Source of the DNA: Alphaproteobacteria bacterium
GTDB lineage: Bacteria; Pseudomonadota; Alphaproteobacteria; Rhizobiales; BM303
Reading direction: 5' to 3'
Length of the DNA: 64,000 nucleotides
Assembly (NCBI GenBank): GCA_024275895.1
Contig: JAJRYE010000106.1
Coordinates: 18,815-82,814, forward strand
A program made the translations under genes and the position numbers. Shown piece after piece: positions 16,425 through 28,175 of the stretch. The notes under the pieces were generated by a model, which did not search any database, was not told where the DNA came from, and saw only the letters and a list, made by a program, of their open reading frames with translations. Position 1 is the first letter of the stretch. Each line of letters starts with the position of its first letter.

Positions 16425-18011
16425 TCATTCCGTGCCGTTATCCTTTTCTGGCTTTATTGCGCCATCCGTGCCAAGTCCGAGATCGTTCAGCAAGGCATCG
16501 ACGATCGGTGCTTGGGCGCGGTAACGCAAGGCGCCGTCGAACATGTTGCCCTGATCCGCCCTGACCTCGCCGGCTGCACGGCCCAGCCCTCCGGTCTGCA
16601 CGATCTTGATGCTGTCGATGCTTTTCAGCGGCTCGGCGCTTTCGCGGATAATCTGCGGCAGATGATCAATCAGATATTTGCGCACTTCGGCCGAGACATG
16701 ATCGGCAGAGAGCAGATTGCGGGCGTCGTTAAGGGCGCGCTCGCCTTCAGCATCGGTCTTGTAGCGGATTTCATCCGCCCTGGCCTTGATATTATCGGCC
16801 TCCGCTTTATCCGTTGCGGCGATTTTTTCTGCTGCGGCGAGCAATTTAAGCGCTACCGCCTCGCGCTCGGCCTCGCGGGCGGCATCAAGGATCGCCACCG
16901 CCTTGCGCCGTTCCGCCGCCTCAATTTCGCGCGCGGTGAGAACATGCTCCTCAGCCGCGACCAGAACCGCCCGGCTCTTTTCGGCCTCGGATTTCAGTTT
17001 CATCTGGGCGAGCGAGCCTTTGGCTATTTCCTGATCGCTGAGTTGTTCGGCCAGTGTCAGGGCCTTGTCTTTCTCGATTTCACGCTCGCGCAGCGCCCGC
17101 TCGCGATCAAGCCGCTCCTCATCCACTTCACGGTCGGAAAGAATTCTGGCAATCTGAACCTTCTTTTGCTTCTCGATATCGGCTTCATCGGCGGCCTGAG
17201 ACTGGGCCGCGCGCTGGCGGGCGATTTCGGCGGTTTGCTCCGCCTTGCGGCTTTCAATCTCAAGTTCCTGTTCAAGGCGGGCAAATTGCCCTTCGCGTTC
17301 CAGCGAGAGATTCAGTTTTTCGGTTTCAAGGTTTTTGTTCCTGATCTGAATCTGCGTGTCCTGCTCGATATCATTGCGCTTTTTCTTGCGCTGTTCGATG
17401 GTTTGTGTAAGGCGGGTCAAGCCTTCGGCGTCAAAGGCATTGGAGGGGTCGAAAAATTCCATGCGGGTCTGGTCAAGCGCGGTCACCGATACCGATTCCA
17501 GAGCCAGCCCGTTGCGCGAGAGATCCTCGCCCAGCGAATCGCGGATTTTCGCAGCATAGGTTTTGCGTTTTTCATGCAACTCCTCCATCGTCATTTCGGC
17601 GGCGACAGAACGAATGGCGTCAACGAATTTGCCCTCGGTTATGTCGCGAACCTTTTCCGGGCGAAGGGTCCGGGAGCCAAGCGTCGCCGCGGCGGTGGAG
17701 ACAGCCTCCTTGACATTGGGAACATGAACATAAAATTCGGCAACCACGTCAACCCGCATCCTGTCCTTGCTGATAACCGCCTGTTCATCCGCCAGACTGA
17801 CCCCCAGCCGCATGGTGTTGAGATTGACCTCGATCATCTCCTGCAATAACGGGATGACGATGGCGCCGCCGCCCAGAACCACTTTTTCACCGCCCAGACC
17901 GGTGCGGACAAAAGCAGTTTCCTTCGAGGCCCGGCGATAAAACCGGAAAAACAGAACAACGATGACAAGAATTGCAATTGCCAGCACCGCGAGGATTGTT
18001 GCGCCAGTCAT
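16425..18011 (-). CDS. Flotillin/SPFH-domain membrane protein
   Basis: N-terminal TM helix, FVRTGLGGEKVVLGGGAIVIPLLQEMIEVNLNTMRLGV, long Ala/Glu-rich coiled coil. Confidence 0.9.
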   Translation of the reverse strand: MTGATILAVLAIAILVIVVLFFRFYRRASKETAFVRTGLGGEKVVLGGGAIVIPLLQEMIEVNLNTMRLGVSLADEQAVISKDRMRVDVVAEFYVHVPNVKEAVSTAAATLGSRTLRPEKVRDITEGKFVDAIRSVAAEMTMEELHEKRKTYAAKIRDSLGEDLSRNGLALESVSVTALDQTRMEFFDPSNAFDAEGLTRLTQTIEQRKKKRNDIEQDTQIQIRNKNLETEKLNLSLEREGQFARLEQELEIESRKAEQTAEIARQRAAQSQAADEADIEKQKKVQIARILSDREVDEERLDRERALREREIEKDKALTLAEQLSDQEIAKGSLAQMKLKSEAEKSRAVLVAAEEHVLTAREIEAAERRKAVAILDAAREAEREAVALKLLAAAEKIAATDKAEADNIKARADEIRYKTDAEGERALNDARNLLSADHVSAEVRKYLIDHLPQIIRESAEPLKSIDSIKIVQTGGLGRAAGEVRADQGNMFDGALRYRAQAPIVDALLNDLGLGTDGAIKPEKDNGTE

Positions 18012-18454
18012 GATGTTTCTCCCGCAAATTGTTCTTTCAGGGCGTCAAACCCGGCCTGAAAGACGTTCTGGCTGATCAGGCCGGCCATCCCGGTTTCATT
18101 TCCGGGCGTTGTGTCAAACTCCGCCTTCCACTCGGCAAAGGTCCGGTTGCCATCGGTTACCGGTGTCAGTTTCAACTCCGCCACATAGTTGGTCAGATCA
18201 AGCCCCGCCTCAAGGATTGCATAGGAAAAGTGGAAATCAAAATCAGAGAGCATGAGCAGTTGCTCGCGGATATGGGTGCCGTCCTGCAGATAGAAACTGC
18301 GGATGCAACCCACCGCATCGCTTGGCCGCCCGCCCTCTATCATCGAGCGCGCGATTGCCGGGTGCCAGGCGGGCATGGCGTTAAAATCACGTATGAGGCT
18401 CCAGACCTTGTCGGTCGGTGCATCAATAACGGAACTGACAAATATTTTCACCAT
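18008..18454 (-). CDS. SRPBCC (START/polyketide-cyclase-like) family protein
   Basis: VKIFVSSVIDAPTDKVWSLIRDFNAMPAWHPAIARS...; 4-bp overlap with the flotillin start. Confidence 0.85.
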   Translation of the reverse strand: MVKIFVSSVIDAPTDKVWSLIRDFNAMPAWHPAIARSMIEGGRPSDAVGCIRSFYLQDGTHIREQLLMLSDFDFHFSYAILEAGLDLTNYVAELKLTPVTDGNRTFAEWKAEFDTTPGNETGMAGLISQNVFQAGFDALKEQFAGETS

Positions 18455-18472
18455 ATCATCTTCCCTCACATT

Positions 18473-19306
18473 TTACGCGCGGCCAATGGCCTTGAATGTT
18501 TTGGTCTGTTTGGTGAGCGCATGTTCCGTCGGCAGCCGCTCCATGCTTGAAGCGCCGTAAAAGCCATTGCATCTGGGGCAGTTGGCGAGGATATATTCGG
18601 CATCTTCAGGCGAGGAAATCGGCCCGCCATGACAAAGGACAATGACATTATCACGCACGCCGAGCGCCGCATCGGCCCATTCATTAATCAGGGCAACACA
18701 ATCCTTCAGACCAAGAGCCGTATCGGCGCCGATATTGCCGCCGGTGGTCAGCCCCATATGCGGCACGATGATATCCGCCCCCGCCCGGGTCATGGCAATG
18801 GCGTCCCCGGCGCCAAAGACATAAGGCGTCGTCAGCATGTCCAGCTCATGAGCCCTGGCGATCATATCGACCTCAAGCGCGTATCCCATGCCTGTTTCTT
18901 CAAGATTGGCGCGGAAATTACCATCAATAAGACCAACAGTCGGAAAGTTCTGAACCCCGCTAAAGCCGAGATCACCGAGATGTTTTAAAAAATAATCGAG
19001 ATTTAAAAACGGGTCCGTTGCATTCACCCCGGCCAGCACGGGGGTGTGCTCAACAACGGGAAGAACTTCCGAAGCCATCTCCAGAACAATCTCATTGGCG
19101 TTACCATAGGCAAGAAGCCCGGCCAGCGAGCCGCGCCCGGCCATCCGGTAGCGTCCTGAATTGTAGATCACGATAAGGTCGATGCCGCCCGCCTCTTCGC
19201 ATTTTGCCGACAACCCGGTGCCCGCGCCGCCGCCGATAATGGGCTGGTTATCGGCGATCATCCCGCGGAACCGGGCAAGCAATTCCTGTCGCTTAATTCT
19301 GGCCAT
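18473..19306 (-). CDS. Phosphoenolpyruvate hydrolase-like TIM-barrel protein (TIM-br_sig_trns family)
   Basis: [52 protein letters not shown]...[16 protein letters not shown]-like ggaggaat before ATG at 19306. Confidence 0.9.
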
Positions 19307-19342
19307 CTGGATTCCTCCGTCTATCTGCATCCTGTATTATCG

Positions 19343-21529
19343 TCATTTTGCAATCCTGTTGAATTCCGCCGCCAGCGCATCCGCAAAGGCCGGATCGTTA
19401 ATGTGATGCGGAAGCCGGATGAGCCGGCGTTCAGCCGTTTGTTTTACCGAACCCTCCAGCGCCGCAAACAACGCCCTGTCCGCTTCCGGGTCGTGAAACG
19501 GCTGGCTCGGCGCATCAAGCGCGGAAACCCCGCCTTCGGGGATGAAAAATCTCACCGGGCCCTCGCAGCGGTTGAGCTTTTTGCCTATCCACTCGCCCAC
19601 AAGGCGGTTTTCCTCAACCGTTGTCCGCATCAGGGTCACCTGCGGGTTGTGCTCATAAAGATTGCGCTCCCTGAATTGCGGCGGCACGGTATCAATCGCG
19701 CCGAAATTCACCATATCCAGCGCGCCGCAGGAGCCGACATAGGGGATGCCGGTTCGCGCGGTGGCCCCCAGCCGGTCTTTACCGGCGCTCATCACCCCGC
19801 CCATCAGAAAATCGCAAATTTCCGTCGTACTGACATCCAGCATGCCTGAAAGCATGCCCGAATCCGCCAGTTTTTCCATCGAGCGGCCACCGGTGCCGGT
19901 GGCATGGAAAACGAGGCAGTCATATTTATGCTCCAGCTTGCGGGTCAGCAACTGGACGCAAGGCGTGGTAACGCCGAACATGGTCAGTCCGATCGCTGGT
20001 TTATGGCTCTGCCTTACCGGACGCTCGTGGCGGATCATTCCGGCAAGGGCATGGGCGGCATTGGCGAGAACGCGCTCGGAAATGCGGTTGATGCCCGAGA
20101 CATCGGTAACCGAATACATCATGCAGATATCGGAGGGGCCGACATAAGGCCCTACATCGCCTGACGCCACGGTTGAGACCATGATTTTCGGAATACCGAT
20201 ATCGAGAGCCTGCATGGCCGGCGTTGCCAGCGCCGTGCCGCCCGAACCGCCCAGGGAGATAACCCCCGCCACATCATCTTGCGCCGTCAGATAGTGCTCA
20301 AAAGCCACCGCCATGGCACTGACCGCCGTGCCGCGATCCCCGGTGAAAACAGCCTCCAAGCCGCCGGGATGGCTTTGCGCCACTGCCCTTGCGAGGATAT
20401 CGGCAGATGAGGGCCGGCCGGATGTGGAAAGATCAACGCTCAGGGTTTTCAGTCCACGTTTGACAAGGATATTGCGGACAAAATTCAACTCACGGGCTTT
20501 GGTATCAAAGGTTCCGGCGACATAGGCCCTGCCCGATACAGGGTTTGGCCCCCGGGCTTCAGAAGCCGCATCGGCCACAATTACCGGGGCGGCTGCGGCG
20601 GGAAGTACTGCATGGTCCCATCTTGTAATCGGTTTGCCGATCCCCATACGTTGATGGTCTTCGGGCCGGTGTTGCCCGACAAGCGGGTTTCCATAGGAAA
20701 ACCGGTTTGGCGAGCGGCCCAGTTGCGCCAGAGCGCCCGCTTCATATTCCGGTGCGGGCTTATCAACCGGCGCCTCGGCGCGCGGTGCGGCTGGTTCATC
20801 CTCGCCGCCGGCAACGCCGAGCAGTTTTTGCTGCATCACCTTGTCGGCCGCCAGCTGTGAGGAATTCAGTTCCACTTCGATACGGCCATTGACCATGATC
20901 GCAATACGCTCGGAAACCTGCATGGCAACGCCGAGATTTTGTTCGACCAGAAGAATGGAGACATCTTCATTCTTGCTCAGATGGATCAGCAATTCCTCCA
21001 CCTGATCAACAATGACCGGAGCCAGACCCTCGGTCGGCTCGTCCATGATCAGAAGATGCGGATTGCCAAGCAGGGCACGGCCAATGGCCAGCATCTGCTG
21101 CTCCCCGCCCGAAAGCTGGTTGCCGCCATTCCCGCGCCGCTCGCCAAGCCGGGGGAAGGTTGAATACACCCGCTCCCGGCTCCAGGCACCGCCCTTGCGC
21201 TCGGCCAGCCGCAAATGCTCATCGACACTGAGCGAGGGCCATATGCGCCGTCCCTGCGGTACATAACCAACACCGATATCCGAGATCTGATAGGGATCAA
21301 GCCCGAGCACATTCACAGCGCCGACATGAACCGAGCCGCCCGCCGCCGGGACAATGCCCATGATGGCGTTGCATAAGGTGGTTTTGCCCATGCCGTTGCG
21401 CCCGACCACGGCGAGAATGCCATTGGCGGGAACCTCCAGCGTCACCCCCTGCAAGGCGTGCGAGTGGCCGTAATAAACATTGAGATCAGTGACTTTAAGC
21501 GAAAGGCTTGAAGCTGCGCCGCTGCTCAT
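19343..21529 (-). CDS. Fusion: LivF-type ABC ATPase + Tm-1-like/UPF0261 domain
   Basis: N-half Walker [10 protein letters not shown] and [17 protein letters not shown]-half [37 protein letters not shown] and [15 protein letters not shown] typical of Tm-1-like proteins; single 728-aa ORF. Confidence 0.93.
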
Positions 21530-22329
21530 CTGGTGCCCCCCCCGAGGTAAATGGCCTGCACGTCCTGATCGTTGCGGATTTCATCCGGCGTACCTTCACG
21601 AAACAGCTGCCCGTTATTCATGACCGTCACCTTATCGGACACCTTCAGCGCCACGTCCAGATCATGTTCGATAATCACGAAAGTGATGTGACCCGGCAAG
21701 CCGTTCAGCATCTCGACAAGCTGGGTGCGCTCGGCCGGTGAAAGCCCGGCGGCGGGCTCATCAAGCAGGATCAGGCGCGGCGCTCCGGCCATCGCCATGC
21801 CGATTTCAAGCTGTCTTTGCTGCCCGTGCGAAAGATCGCCGACCGGCATATCCGCCCGCTCACCGAGATGGACAAACCGCGCCAGATCACGGGCCCGTGT
21901 GCTGGCGATATCATCGGGCCGGGGGCGCTGCGGGCTGAAACGGCCATCCATTACGCCCCGCACCGCCAGATAAAGATTGTCCAGAACGCTCAAGCCGCCA
22001 AACAGCAGGGATTTCTGGTAGGTCCGGCGCAAGCCGCGCCGGATCCGGTTGTGAACCGCCAGATGCGTGATGTCCTCGCCAAAGAAGACGATGCGCCCGG
22101 AAGTTGGCGGAAAATCCCCGGTAATCGCATTGAACAGCGTTGTCTTGCCCGCCCCGTTGGCGCCGAGCACCGCCCGGCGCTCACCGGCGCGGACGGAAAA
22201 TGAAATATCCTCCAGCGCAACGAGCGAGCCGAATTTGCGGCCAACATCCGCAAGCTCAAGGGCAAAGGATGAACCGCCAATGGGATGACGGTCCATCTGC
22301 CGCGTATCATGCGACATATCCGGGGTCAC
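21526..22329 (-). CDS. LivG-type branched-chain amino acid-like ABC transporter ATPase
   Basis: [31 protein letters not shown]. Confidence 0.93.
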
Positions 22330-22336
22330 GGTTCAG

Positions 22337-23584
22337 TTACTTGCACGCCGGCACATTGCGTCCGACCCTGCCCAGGGCGAGGAACTTGGCGCGGTCCCCG
22401 TTCATGACCTGATTGACCTGCGGGATGATCTTGATCACCTTGTTGTAAAGCGTGCCGTCCTTTGCCTCGGTAACTTCGGTGAGGAAGATATCGGTTATCC
22501 CCTGGCGGTTTTCATCCAGAGACACCTTGCCCGTGGGCGTATCGAGCACGAGATTGGTCAATGCCGCACGATATTTGGCATGGCCGTCCGAGAGGTCGCC
22601 CTTGACCTTGTCGAGCGCGGTCAGGGCCGCCGACATGGAGATAAAATAACCATGGGCGAACAGTGACGGTGTCGGGAAGCCATCGGGGAACTGCGCCTTG
22701 TAGTCAGCCTTCCAGGCCTGCCAGACGGGGTTGTCCCAGCTATCGGCAATCGGGCCTGCCGACGGGGTGCCGACAACATAGGATTTGCGGCGGCCCTTGG
22801 AGCCGAGCACCGACTGATCAACCGTGATTGTGCCGCCGATCAGGGGTTTGTCGCCGCCGGCCTGCTCATACTGGGAAAGGAAATTGACCGCATCGGCGCC
22901 GCCAAGCCCGACCCATATGGCGTCGATATCATCGGGTATAGAGGCCACGATGGTTGAATAATCCTTGTTGCCGATCGGAACCCAGAAGCGGTTGGCGACC
23001 TTGCCGCCCAGATTGCAAAAATCATTCAGGAAGCCGAGAGCCATGGTGTAGGGAAACGAGTAATCCTCGCCAATGGTAACAATGTTCCGGTAGCCCTTGA
23101 CCTTGTAGACATATTCCCCCAGACCGGCCATCCACTGGGCGCCATCCCCGGTAAAGCGGAAAAAATTGGGTGCAGGATCGCGCAACGTGGTGTCCTGCGC
23201 GGCCGACAAACCGTTGATGAAGGTCACGCCGGGTTTGGTCTTGGCGTATTCCTTGATCGCCAGCCCTTCGGAGCCCGAAAGCGGTCCGACAACAATATCA
23301 ACTCCGTCTTGCTCAACCAGTTTCTTGACCGCGCGGATGGCGCTGTCGGGCGAGGTATCGGATGAGGAGCGGATAATCACCAGATCCTTGCCGCCCGCCT
23401 TGTTGCCCCATTTCTTCAGCGCCATGTCAACACCGCGCATCCCCTCCTTGCCAAGCACCGCAAAAGCGCCCTCCAGCGTTGCGATCGTGCCGATCTTGAT
23501 GGTCTCGGCGCTGGCCAGAACTGTCGATGAAAGCAAGCCTCCCACGACCGCCAGACCGATCAGGCTTCTTCTGGATAGTTTCAT
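22337..23584 (-). CDS. LivJ-type periplasmic ABC substrate-binding protein
   Basis: Signal peptide MKLSRRSLIGLAVVGGLLSSTVLASA, IKIGTIATLEGAFAVLGKEGMRGVDMALKKWG. Confidence 0.93.
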   Translation of the reverse strand: MKLSRRSLIGLAVVGGLLSSTVLASAETIKIGTIATLEGAFAVLGKEGMRGVDMALKKWGNKAGGKDLVIIRSSSDTSPDSAIRAVKKLVEQDGVDIVVGPLSGSEGLAIKEYAKTKPGVTFINGLSAAQDTTLRDPAPNFFRFTGDGAQWMAGLGEYVYKVKGYRNIVTIGEDYSFPYTMALGFLNDFCNLGGKVANRFWVPIGNKDYSTIVASIPDDIDAIWVGLGGADAVNFLSQYEQAGGDKPLIGGTITVDQSVLGSKGRRKSYVVGTPSAGPIADSWDNPVWQAWKADYKAQFPDGFPTPSLFAHGYFISMSAALTALDKVKGDLSDGHAKYRAALTNLVLDTPTGKVSLDENRQGITDIFLTEVTEAKDGTLYNKVIKIIPQVNQVMNGDRAKFLALGRVGRNVPACK

Positions 23585-23606
23585 GATAATCCTCCCTTTG
23601 TTTGTT

Positions 23607-24593
23607 TTACTGGCTGGATGCGCGGGCAGATGAGCTGCCCGGTTTGAAAAGACGACGCCACCAACCGATGACTCCGTCCGGTGAAAACAAAACGATAAAC
23701 AAAAATACCGCGCCGATGACCGTGTTGAAGCGCTCCCGGTCGATAAGATCAATGGCGAAATTATCAACCAGCGTGAAAATGAGCGCGCCGATAAAAGCGC
23801 CGACGGGATGTCCCAGCCCGCCGATAACCGCGATGATCAGAATATCAATCGCCGGGCCCACGCCGATTGAAGAAGGGTCAATCCGGTCATTCATCCAGAC
23901 CGTCAAAATACCGCCTATTGCAGCCAGAACCGAGGCGATTGCATAGGCCGTGATACGGTGCGCCTTGACGTGAAATCCCAGGGCTTCCATGCGCCGTGCA
24001 TTGTCGCGCACCCCCTGAAGGGCAACGCCGAAGGTGGAGCGCACCAGATGGGTTATCGCCAGATAGGAAAACGCCGCGAAGATCAGGCACAGATAGTAAA
24101 ACCACACCGGATTGCGCAGGTCATAACCGCCGATAACCGGGGCCTTGATGCCCGCAAATCCGGTAAATCCGTTGAATATTGCATAGTTTTGACGGGTAAA
24201 ATAAAAAAATCCGGTAGCAACCGCCAGGGTGATCATGATGGTGTAAATGCCCTCGGTACGCACCGATAAAACGCCGATCAAGGTCCCGAAGATAGTGGCG
24301 AGGATGATTGCGGTGATGATGACCACGGGCAGGGGCCAGCCGAGGCCAAGACCGGCGCTGTTGAGGCCGAAAATGGCCATGGAATAACCGGCCAGACCCG
24401 CAACACTCATCTGGGCCAGGGAAACCATGCCGCCATACCCGGCCAGAAGGATCAATCCCAGGGCGATAATTCCGTAAATAAATGTCTGCGCGCCGATCTG
24501 CACCAGCCAGAAGGCGTTGGCGAGCAACGGAAAGGCGGCAAGAAGCAGGGCGGTAATAATGACAGCCGGCGATATCAGATCGGTGCGTTTCAT
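23607..24593 (-). CDS. LivM-type ABC permease
   Basis: Hydrophobic; GLILLAGYGGMVSLAQMSVAGLAGYSMAIFG. Confidence 0.92.
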   Translation of the reverse strand: MKRTDLISPAVIITALLLAAFPLLANAFWLVQIGAQTFIYGIIALGLILLAGYGGMVSLAQMSVAGLAGYSMAIFGLNSAGLGLGWPLPVVIITAIILATIFGTLIGVLSVRTEGIYTIMITLAVATGFFYFTRQNYAIFNGFTGFAGIKAPVIGGYDLRNPVWFYYLCLIFAAFSYLAITHLVRSTFGVALQGVRDNARRMEALGFHVKAHRITAYAIASVLAAIGGILTVWMNDRIDPSSIGVGPAIDILIIAVIGGLGHPVGAFIGALIFTLVDNFAIDLIDRERFNTVIGAVFLFIVLFSPDGVIGWWRRLFKPGSSSARASSQ

Positions 24594-25454
24594 GCGCTGC
24601 GCCCCATAATGCCCTGCGGACGCACGGCAAGAACCGCGACCATGATGACAAAGGTATAGACCACGCCATAGGTCGGCGAGTAGGCAAGGCCGTATTGCTC
24701 GGTCAAACCGATGAGAATGGCGCCGACGGCGCTGCCGGCCACGGAGCCCATGCCGCCGACAATCACCACGACCAGCGAAGCCAGCAGATAGCGCAAATCC
24801 TCACCCGGCGCGATGGAAAGGGCCGAGCCGCCGACAACCCCGGCAAGACCGGCCAGCCCCGCCCCCAGAGCGAAGGTCAGCGCGAAAATCAAATGCACAT
24901 TCACACCGGTTGCCGAGAGCATGTCGCGATCATCAACACCGGCCCGGATCATCATGCCGATGCGGGTCCGGTTGAGAAACAGCCATAGGGCGATGCCAAC
25001 GGTAATGGCGGCAACCAGAATGAAGAGTCGGTAGATCGGATAGACCTTGATGACCGGAATCCCCCTGAGCGCGCCGTAAAGCGCATCGGGAATTTCAAAC
25101 TGATAGGTCGTGCCGCCCCAATAGGCCAGCATCAGATCCGCGGCAATGATCGAAATCCCGATGGTCACCAGGGTTTGCCGCAGCTCCTGCCCCTCCAGAA
25201 ACCGGAACAGATAATGTTGCAGCAACAATCCAAGAAGCGCCATCGACAAAAACCCGCCCGCGATCGCGGCAACCCATGATCCGGTGGCTTCCTGGAACTG
25301 ATAGCCGATATAGGCCCCAAGCAGGTATAAGGAGCCATGCGCCATATTGACGTTGCGCATCAATCCGAACACCAGGGAAAAACCGCTGGCGACCAGAAAA
25401 TACAAGGCGGCAAGGGTCAGCCCGTTCAGTGTCGTGATCAAAAACAACTTCATG
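24590..25454 (-). CDS. LivH-type ABC permease
   Basis: NGLTLAALYFLVASGFSLVFGLMRNVNMAHGSLYLLGAY; overlaps the next gene. Confidence 0.92.
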
Positions 25455-25571
25455 TGTGTCTCATGAGCGTCTTGCCTTGATGGACCACAAAATAACCATG
25501 CGAGTATCAAATCATGAATTGAAATCAATTTCCATTGGCAATGAACGAATAAACGGGTAAAATCGGGTAAC

Positions 25572-26237
25572 ATGAGCGCGATAACCCGAACTCCGTTGGA
25601 CTGGACCCTGATCCTTGCCGGGAGCTGCGAGCAGATAGATATCCGGCCGGGCACCAGTATGATCGTTCCCGCCTCCCCCCGGACGGGCGGGGTTCCGCTG
25701 TCCTTGAGGGGCTTGCTGCCAACCCATAATCACAACCGTAATCTGATCGATCTGTTGAACTCGTGTCCGGTAAATGCGTTTGCCGGGCACTCTTTTGTTG
25801 CCGCCATATTTGCCGCCGACAGCTTCTTGCCCTTCACCGATATGGTGCGGGCGATGCAACGGGTGGGGATACGCAAGGTGACCAATTTCCCGACGGTTTG
25901 CGCTTACGGGCCATTTGTTGAAACCGCCCTGAGCGATGTAGGGCTTGGGATTGAACTCGAGTTTGAAATCCTGGCCAGATTTCGCAACTCCGCCTTTGAA
26001 ACCGCCGCCACCTTGCGCGAAGTGAAGCATCAAAAAGCGGCGATAGAGGCCGGAAGCTTCGCCGTCATCGAGCTGGCCCGGTCAGACAAACAGGTATTTT
26101 CCAGGCTCTCCATGCAAAAAAATGCCGTAAAAACCCTGTTCATGACACCGGACGCCAGCGCTCCGCTCTCCGGCCGCCCTCCCAATACCGATGGCCTGGT
26201 GCTGACATGGGACCAGTTCAGCCAAGCCCGTATCTGA
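25572..26237 (+). CDS. Diverged PEP-hydrolase-like TIM-barrel paralog, apparently C-terminally shortened
   Basis: KVTNFPTVCAYGPFVETALSDVGLGIELEFEIL aligns with [33 protein letters not shown] of the 18473 gene. Confidence 0.7.
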   Translation: MSAITRTPLDWTLILAGSCEQIDIRPGTSMIVPASPRTGGVPLSLRGLLPTHNHNRNLIDLLNSCPVNAFAGHSFVAAIFAADSFLPFTDMVRAMQRVGIRKVTNFPTVCAYGPFVETALSDVGLGIELEFEILARFRNSAFETAATLREVKHQKAAIEAGSFAVIELARSDKQVFSRLSMQKNAVKTLFMTPDASAPLSGRPPNTDGLVLTWDQFSQARI

Positions 26238-27969
26238 CGATCTTGTTATAGAGCGTTTTGCGTGAAATCCCCAACTCGCGTGCCGTATCCGTGCGCCGGA
26301 AGCGATTTCGCTTTAAGGCACTGGCGATCCATTCGCGTTCATCAAGATACTCGACGGATTTGGATTTCATGGTTTCCATTGCGGCCAGAATATCGCTTGC
26401 CGATATGGAAGTGCCGGCCAGTTCAACCAGTTTCACCGAAAGCTGTCGCAACTCGGTGATGTTGCCAGGCCAAGTATGCGAGGACAGCATTCCGATTGCC
26501 GAGGCGTCAAGGGAGATTGTTTCCGCGCGCCCGGTTGCGGCCTGATCGATAAACAGGCGCAACAGATCGGGGATATCGCCCTGCCGGTCGCGCAGGGCGG
26601 GCACCAGGACATCATTGCCGGAAAACGAAGCGCATAATTGCGCATCCAGCGAGCCGGACTTCATAAAAGACATCAGTGAATTTCCTGAAGAACAGATAAT
26701 CCGGACGTCGGAGGAAATCACCCGCCGTCCATCCATTGGCGAAAAGGCACCCCGCTCCAGATATCTTGCCAGCCGGGTTTGCAGCCGTTTTGGAAGCCGC
26801 GATATCTCCTCGATATACGAAGTCCCGCCATTGAGCTTTTCCAGCAGGTTTGAGACCCTTGAAGTCCCGGATTTGTCGGCTTGCCGGTCACCGCCAAACA
26901 GTCTTATGCCGATCTGGTGCGGGGTCAGATGCGCAAGGGACAATTCGGCATAAGGTTTCTGGCGCCGCGGGCTCATCTTATGCAGCGCCGCGGCGGCGAA
27001 GCCGCGCCCAGATCCGGCTTCACCATAAATCAGGACCGGGCCGTTATGGCCTGAAAAGGCATAAAGTTTTTCAAAGACCTTCATGATGGCGATTGAGGTT
27101 CCCACAAGACCTGTATTGCCGATTTGCCGTATCCGGTCTTTTTCCTGCCGCAGCAGTTCAAGAGAGAGCAAATCCACCCCCTTGAACCCGCGTGTGCTCT
27201 CGGAAATGGACGCCTCTGTCGGCAATCGGTCCAGTGTTGATCCGCCGATATAGCCATGCACCGGAACGCTGCTGTAAATATCCGCAAGATCTTCGGCCGT
27301 TTCAATCGGTCCGCCCTCAAGCATAAACCTGACATGCGCGTGGCGGCGGATAATGGCGCGGTAGACATCATCGGCAAGGTAGCGCACATCCTCGATGCTG
27401 AAACTCGTTTTGGCGCCAAAAGCGCCGCCGACATTCCAGCCGAAATTCAGGCAGATGATATCAACGCCTCTTTCCGCTGCTTCCATCGCCTGACGTTTTG
27501 TCCGCACATAGGCAAGGGTCTGCATAGCGGCATTTTTCGCCCGCGACAAGAGGTCCAGTTCGGCGCCAAAGCCAATGCCATAACTATCAAAATCCCTTTG
27601 CAGATCGCCCGGCAGATGGATCGCGGTGGGGAAAATAACAAACCCGGCAAAGCCCTGAATCCGAGCTTCGGCAATCAACTCGTCCCATTGCTCCTTTGGG
27701 CCATAGACATTTGCGCCAAAAAATACCGGAAGGGCGCATTGTGGAATGATCTCGTTCTTGCCCAGTTTCAGCACGGCGCGGTTGCCATCTTCCACCGGCA
27801 GGATCGAGGCCATTGAGGGCGCGCCCCTTGCGCGCAGCACACCCGCGTTCAGGGCCAGCAAAAAATCCGCCCCGCCGCGCTCGGCAGCAATGGCGGCAAG
27901 GCCCGAGCCCACGGCGGCGCCAACGGCAAACCGGCTGAATGGCCCGTAGTCTCGTATCTTGCGGCTCAC
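26218..27969 (-). CDS. Regulator: N-terminal PEP-hydrolase-like TIM barrel + AAA+ (sigma-54-interaction-like) + Fis-type HTH
   Basis: N-term GFAGFVIFPTAIHLPG...HGYIGGSTLDRLPTE; GEAGSGRG Walker A; C-term TDTARELGISRKTLYNKIVRYGLG. Confidence 0.9.
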   Translation of the reverse strand: MSRKIRDYGPFSRFAVGAAVGSGLAAIAAERGGADFLLALNAGVLRARGAPSMASILPVEDGNRAVLKLGKNEIIPQCALPVFFGANVYGPKEQWDELIAEARIQGFAGFVIFPTAIHLPGDLQRDFDSYGIGFGAELDLLSRAKNAAMQTLAYVRTKRQAMEAAERGVDIICLNFGWNVGGAFGAKTSFSIEDVRYLADDVYRAIIRRHAHVRFMLEGGPIETAEDLADIYSSVPVHGYIGGSTLDRLPTEASISESTRGFKGVDLLSLELLRQEKDRIRQIGNTGLVGTSIAIMKVFEKLYAFSGHNGPVLIYGEAGSGRGFAAAALHKMSPRRQKPYAELSLAHLTPHQIGIRLFGGDRQADKSGTSRVSNLLEKLNGGTSYIEEISRLPKRLQTRLARYLERGAFSPMDGRRVISSDVRIICSSGNSLMSFMKSGSLDAQLCASFSGNDVLVPALRDRQGDIPDLLRLFIDQAATGRAETISLDASAIGMLSSHTWPGNITELRQLSVKLVELAGTSISASDILAAMETMKSKSVEYLDEREWIASALKRNRFRRTDTARELGISRKTLYNKIVRYGLG

Positions 27970-28175
27970 AACGGTTCATATCCTCTTCAATTTTAAAAAC
28001 GGAAGATAAAGACGCATCCGGCCCGCATGATAAATCAATAATCAATTGATCCCTACAGCTTATTGTCGTATCAGTCCCGGGCATCATCCGCCATGTTTAC
28101 GGGCGCGGTTTTGCCGCCGCTCTCAATCCAGATCAGCCGGGCAGGGTTTGCATCTTTTTACAAGGGAAGCCAAAA

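Follow-up and report, generated by a model that had tools for sequence, protein, structure and literature searches.

We analyzed a gene cluster in a 64,000-nucleotide stretch of DNA (hereafter the window; contig JAJRYE010000106.1 of assembly GCA_024275895.1, positions 18,815 to 82,814) from an alphaproteobacterium of the Rhizobiales, whose draft genome is 2.47 Mb in size and 87% complete. The cluster is built around the PF09370 (PEP_hydrolase-like) TIM barrel, which occurs here in three forms: an operon enzyme, the N-terminal part of a regulator that we named REG, and a short barrel protein that we named SHORT. It appears to join an importer to a regulator that has lost the marks of a sigma-54 activator and to an inactive-looking barrel that accompanies this regulator. 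The features of the locus are as follows.

26218-27969, minus strand: REG, a PF09370 barrel with a degenerate AAA+ domain and a Fis-type helix-turn-helix (HTH) (Pfam PEP_hydrolase, Sigma54_activat and HTH_8; motif alignment; AlphaFold2)
25572-26237, plus strand: SHORT, a divergent, inactive-looking PF09370 barrel, companion of REG (Pfam, 43.9 bits)
25555-25570, minus strand: candidate operator, the direct repeat TTACCC-GATT-TTACCC with a period of 10 bp, located 1 bp before the SHORT start codon
25454-25571, no strand: divergent control region between the operon and SHORT, 118 bp, without a -24/-12 promoter
24590-25453, minus strand: LivH/UrtB-type permease (BPD_transp_2), first gene of the operon (Pfam; start codon common to locus L044)
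23607-24593, minus strand: LivM/UrtC-type permease (BPD_transp_2) (Pfam, NCBIfam)
22337-23584, minus strand: periplasmic binding protein, Peripla_BP_6 (Pfam; likely start MKLSRRSL, picked from the sequence by its signal peptide)
21526-22329, minus strand: LivG/UrtD-type ATP-binding cassette (ABC) ATPase (Pfam, NCBIfam)
19343-21529, minus strand: fusion of a LivF-type ABC ATPase with a Tm-1-like (UPF0261) domain, linker of about 85 aa (Pfam; PDB relatives 3wrw, 3wry and 9mpy)
18473-19306 (alternative start 19330), minus strand: PF09370 PEP_hydrolase-like TIM-barrel enzyme (Pfam, 431 bits)
18008-18469, minus strand: SRPBCC protein (Polyketide_cyc2) (Pfam; 4-bp overlap with the flotillin gene)
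16425-18011, minus strand: flotillin-like SPFH protein (Flot and Band_7) (Pfam; next to the PF09370 enzyme or SRPBCC gene in 11 of 16 relatives)

All ten proteins passed the Pfam cut-offs at the positions that an earlier note on this DNA, made from the letters alone, had given them, and Pfam agreed with every identity proposed there for the operon genes (livH, livM, binding protein, livG, livF-Tm-1 fusion, PEP-hydrolase-like protein, SRPBCC protein, and flotillin). On the minus strand, livH (start at 25453) opens the operon and the flotillin gene (16425) closes it. Its tight packing with several 4-bp overlaps was borne out: such overlaps lie at livH/livM, livG/livF-Tm1, and SRPBCC/flotillin, and the remaining gaps are 3-36 bp if the likely start codons are assumed. 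The gene called livH stands, with its most likely start refined so that 118 bp are left as the control region. The short barrel copy, described in the note as divergent, is divergent from the operon but convergent with REG, and the 3' ends of these two genes overlap by 20 bp. The three PF09370 proteins, also recognized in that note, are the only PF09370 matches in the whole genome, scoring 431 bits (enzyme), 209 bits (REG), and 43.9 bits (SHORT) against a gathering cut-off of 33.8.

Searching named genomes with the REG barrel yielded 80 loci, 79 of them with a called REG. Gene maps revealed the window's layout, in which REG and SHORT converge and the operon leads away from SHORT, in Rhodospirillales, Sneathiella, Stappia, Rhodobacteraceae and others, as well as in the gammaproteobacteria Billgrantia, Aquisalimonas and Ectothiorhodospiraceae, while rhizobial symbiotic-type loci hold the same genes in a different order. 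The whole uptake-enzyme-regulator module is thus conserved and recurs across Alpha- and Gammaproteobacteria. The same-genus genome G014 (96% complete) has no PF09370 gene, given which the module may have been gained or lost within the genus of the window.

REG is laid out like a sigma-54 activator, with an AAA+ domain plus a Fis-type HTH (Pfam, AlphaFold2). In the window protein, GEAGSGRG stands at Walker A and SYIEE at Walker B, with the Walker A lysine and the Walker B aspartate gone, and motif alignment places LFGGDRQADKSG at the GAFTGA position. Most relatives are damaged likewise, by deletions that differ between them; GAFTGA is kept in just 11 of the 79 related loci; the REG proteins of Ancylobacter and Billgrantia retain it. 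The AlphaFold2 model of REG still predicts the AAA+ fold, with low confidence for the damaged loop. Judged by these motifs, REG in this genome is not a sigma-54 activator. Compared with the enzyme, the REG barrel retains G33, G37, G39, GG197-198, and GGP235-237, and it carries substitutions at putative catalytic residues (H191 to N, H234 to E, and T195 to N). Because the glycine-rich loops are kept while putative catalytic residues change, it is plausible that REG senses the ligand of the enzyme.

The promoters follow the same division. A -24/-12 promoter (TGGCACG-N4-NTGC) directed into the operon was found in 12 of 15 scored loci with GAFTGA and in none of the 53 loci without it, where the mean best score was 0.82 vs 0.81 for random regions. 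The window control region has no such promoter either (best score 0.76, background mean 0.81). RpoN is present in the window's genome, so its absence does not explain the pattern. In Stappia-type loci, the TGGCACG half is kept and the -12 half is altered, which looks like a relic. A general SHORT promoter with its -10 inside the repeat was considered; it is seen in the window (TTGGCA-17-TAAAAT) and was unsupported across 24 loci (p about 0.2).

The control region also holds a candidate operator. The sequence TTACCCGATTTTACCC, beside the SHORT start codon, is unchanged between the window and L044. Allowing at most one mismatch, TTACCC-N4-TTACCC is present in the control regions of 35 of 53 GAFTGA-less loci vs 3% of random regions. 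In 1.25 Mb of REG loci, where base count predicts about 0.15 exact repeats, there are 39; 25 of them lie at SHORT and the others before livH (Sneathiella) or before rhizobial sugar-type ABC operons. The window repeat is the sole exact copy in its genome. Genomes not selected for REG, a few of which have REG elsewhere, had no exact copy in the 213 kb surrounding their PF09370 genes. In several GAFTGA loci there are inverted half-sites, with the sigma-54 promoter downstream of them. From this distribution, TTACCC-N4-TTACCC is likely the operator of REG. In L104:910, L125:2836 and similar rhizobial loci, the repeat stands shortly before a sugar-type ABC operon (SBP_bac_1), and this placement suggests a wider REG regulon. 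In a Sneathiella locus (L074:12433-13098), an inserted GntR/FCD gene separates SHORT from livH, and here the repeat adjoins livH instead.

SHORT was present in 75 of the 79 REG loci, 68 at the first pass and 7 as divergent copies at the same convergent spot. Among the four loci without it, three have contigs that end at the expected position, and L093, where no SHORT was called, is the only one not explained in this way. In about 53 of 79 loci, SHORT neighbors REG and converges with it. Across 298 genomes of the window's order, PF09370 occurs in 96 and an intact REG in 14; the genomes with SHORT are exactly these 14, and SHORT is absent from all of the roughly 80 enzyme-only genomes. In G170, whose REG-like barrel is broken, SHORT is missing too. 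Since SHORT co-occurs with intact REG and never with the enzyme alone, it is tied to the regulator and not to the enzyme, and most likely works with REG.

The sequence of SHORT is divergent. The window protein aligns to the barrel family, and its identity to distant SHORT proteins is 18-27%. Its AlphaFold2 model has a mean predicted local distance difference test (pLDDT) score of 77 and best matches the structure 2P10 (E 4.6e-9). Of the enzyme-invariant residues compared, SHORT retains N79, D106, N128, P130, and E153 and lacks the glycine-rich loops 33-39, 197-201, and 235-237. In a three-family tree, the enzyme, REG, and SHORT form separate groups, and many SHORT branches are long. Between the window and L044, where synonymous sites are close to saturation, the ratio of nonsynonymous to synonymous substitution rates (dN/dS) was about 0.24 for SHORT, and 0.11, 0.17, and 0.06 for the barrel, AAA, and HTH parts of REG. 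By these values, purifying selection acts on SHORT, which is a real gene.

The importer set is complete, with a binding protein, two permeases, and two ATPases (Pfam). The earlier note had called it a Liv transporter; the five components are there, but the urea-type (Urt) NCBIfam models score above the branched-chain amino-acid (Liv) models, and no component reaches an Urt or Liv equivalog cut-off. The N and C domains of UPF0261 scored 204 and 315 bits against a cut-off of 27. The flotillin matches both the Band_7 and Flot models and scores below the NCBIfam FloT equivalog cut-off (71 vs 700 bits).

The LivF-Tm1 fusion occurs in nine loci, the window and eight others, and a flotillin gene lies beside the PF09370 enzyme or its SRPBCC neighbor in 9/9 fused loci vs 1/24 unfused ones. 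It directly follows the enzyme in 11 of 16 genomes tested, with the SRPBCC gene between or just behind in most, and this adjacency spans several alphaproteobacterial lineages and Ectothiorhodospiraceae; a one-off neighborhood, which had been considered, is overturned by it. SRPBCC was called in 29 of 79 REG loci. The synteny of SRPBCC and flotillin with the transporter genes, on which the earlier note had made its operon proposal depend, is therefore kept in relatives. Flotillin adjacency is conserved in a sub-group of loci and tracks the LivF-Tm1 fusion. The fusion suggests that Tm1 is set at the cytoplasmic face of the importer, from which it could act on the incoming compound. Elsewhere, the Tm1-PF09370 pair accompanies sugar-type ABC importers, PfkB, SDR and HAD genes, or cupin and Gfo/Idh/MocA genes; the pair is thus general, and the importer can be exchanged. 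Loci L034, L037, L039, and L043 encode a protein with two SRPBCC matches in place of the window's single SRPBCC gene, and in Billgrantia (L059, L064) the operon is followed, on the other strand, by a second PF09370 gene with an SRPBCC gene.

The operon enzyme is a close homologue of 2P10 (phmmer E 5.6e-125), which is Mll9387 from a locus on the Mesorhizobium japonicum plasmid pMLa (100% identity over 285 aa). That locus has the same Tm1-PF09370-SHORT-REG set, and its REG likewise lacks GAFTGA. It differs in that the stretch shown holds cupin and Gfo/Idh/MocA genes instead of a Liv/Urt importer, SRPBCC, or flotillin, and its SHORT is not convergent with REG. The pMLa REG is recorded as "sigma-54-dependent" despite the GAFTGA loss, and REG homologues on rhizobial plasmids (e.g., L159:8336-10165) carry the labels "sigma-54-dependent Fis family" or "phosphoenolpyruvate hydrolase family".

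In plant Tm-1 and Tm-1-like proteins, UPF0261 and PF09370 form one chain, and the separate bacterial genes have been reported to coevolve (PMC5028733). The two domains are the same here, but UPF0261 is joined to an ABC ATPase and not to the barrel, and the antiviral role in plants is not implied for the bacterial cluster. The importer resembles Urt/Liv systems in its two permeases, two ATPases, and Peripla_BP_6 protein, and differs in falling below the equivalog cut-offs and in the Tm-1-like domain on one ATPase. The flotillin shares SPFH/Band_7 and Flot with FloT-type proteins and differs in its low score and its place in an importer operon. In the open literature, we found no paper reporting catalytic activity for the PF09370 family and nothing useful on UPF0261/PF09370 biochemistry or the 9MPY structure.

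TyrR is an enhancer-binding-type regulator without GAFTGA. Others are the NtrC proteins of Caulobacter and Rhodobacter and VspR, and GAFTGA-less NtrC proteins regulate sigma-70 promoters (PMC10274813). REG shares with these an AAA+ domain plus a Fis-type HTH and the lack of a sigma-54 contact loop. It differs from them in its PF09370 barrel sensor, its altered Walker residues, and the paralogous inactive-looking barrel next door.

Taken together, we propose that the cluster is a substrate-inducible module for uptake and conversion. The urea/branched-chain-type ABC importer would take up a compound that is small, polar, and acid-like; what the earlier note proposed, a small acid or an aromatic, is a guess. 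The Tm-1-like domain, tethered to the importer ATPase, and the PF09370 barrel would act on this compound near the membrane, where the flotillin probably organizes a complex. REG would be a one-component regulator whose barrel binds the substrate or product and whose Fis-type HTH binds TTACCC-N4-TTACCC between SHORT and the operon. With its ATPase and sigma-54 contacts lost and no -24/-12 promoter present, REG would have to work, like TyrR-like and GAFTGA-less NtrC proteins, on a promoter of the ordinary sigma-70 type. SHORT, which would be expressed from the divergent promoter next to the operator, may modulate REG and thereby give feedback; the simplest way would be for it to pair with the REG barrel. 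We hold this model as a whole to be moderately probable.

Several observations weigh against it. The ligand, the substrate, and the DNA binding in the model are predictions from sequence, and the window REG barrel lacks the residues aligned to N128 and D106, so its ligand may differ. The GAFTGA-bearing REG proteins form one tree group (Shimodaira-Hasegawa-like approximate likelihood ratio test 90), so the link between motif and promoter may rest on few evolutionary changes. The enzyme-rooted tree nests this group among GAFTGA-less lineages with differing lesion types; on the unrooted tree, the GAFTGA distribution needs one change, and we therefore do not claim repeated independent losses. The correlation between GAFTGA and the -24/-12 promoter is a consistent pattern and not many independent tests. 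Moreover, 18 of the 53 loci without GAFTGA did not show the repeat (at most one mismatch), the -35/-10 test for SHORT over the 24 loci was negative, leaving the sigma-70 promoter of the operon and SHORT putative, and the fusion and flotillin show just 3-4 independent changes on the tree, too few for significance.

Other explanations were weighed on the same evidence. REG might still be sigma-54-dependent here through an unusual loop, its promoter having merely diverged. The genome does encode RpoN, the AAA+ fold is predicted to be intact, and public records label such proteins sigma-54-dependent, but the loss of GAFTGA, the Walker A lysine, and the Walker B aspartate, along with a best -24/-12 score below the background mean, makes this very unlikely. 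It is also rather unlikely that the repeat is bound by another regulator, such as the GntR/FCD proteins of some loci, while REG acts elsewhere: a GntR gene does lie between SHORT and livH in Sneathiella and beside REG in L043, but the window and most loci keep the repeat with no such gene in the module, and the PF09370 neighborhoods of genomes not selected for REG contain no exact copy. That flotillin and SRPBCC are chance neighbors without a role in uptake would fit the many REG loci that lack flotillin; its constant position in 11 of 16 genomes across several lineages and its correlation with the fusion render this improbable.

SHORT could alternatively serve the PF09370 enzyme or Tm1 as a subunit or chaperone; we regard this as unlikely, though it deserves some weight. 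SHORT is a paralogue of the enzyme, retains N79/D106/N128/P130/E153, and is transcribed divergently from the operon; set against this are the roughly 80 genomes that carry the enzyme without SHORT, its failure to occur without REG in that sample, and its frequent convergence with REG. The idea of a decaying pseudogene from a duplicated regulator or enzyme draws on the low identity of the window SHORT to distant SHORT proteins, the lost loops, and the weak Pfam score. We ruled it out as scarcely credible, because position and open frame are kept across two classes (75 of 79 loci), dN/dS is low, and SHORT forms a clade of its own.

Relative to the earlier note, the loss of sigma-54 machinery in REG, the tie between SHORT and REG, and the conserved candidate operator are new. 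The findings suggest that many "sigma-54-dependent" annotations in the REG family are wrong. The uncharacterized Tm-1/PF09370 pair, fused in plants into a virus-resistance protein, gains a bacterial setting with an importer, a regulator, and a candidate operator, and REG reporters could be used to look for its substrate. One and the same circuit exists at this locus in naturally paired sigma-54-type and non-sigma-54 versions, and the inactive-looking SHORT provides a directly testable dead-enzyme partner of a regulator. Tentatively, and as a possibility a little short of even, one barrel family may here have given rise to an enzyme, a sensor, and an inactive-looking obligate partner or antagonist, with the output of the sensor switched, inside a single conserved locus, from sigma-54 activation to a sigma-70-type mode and the matching promoter lost.

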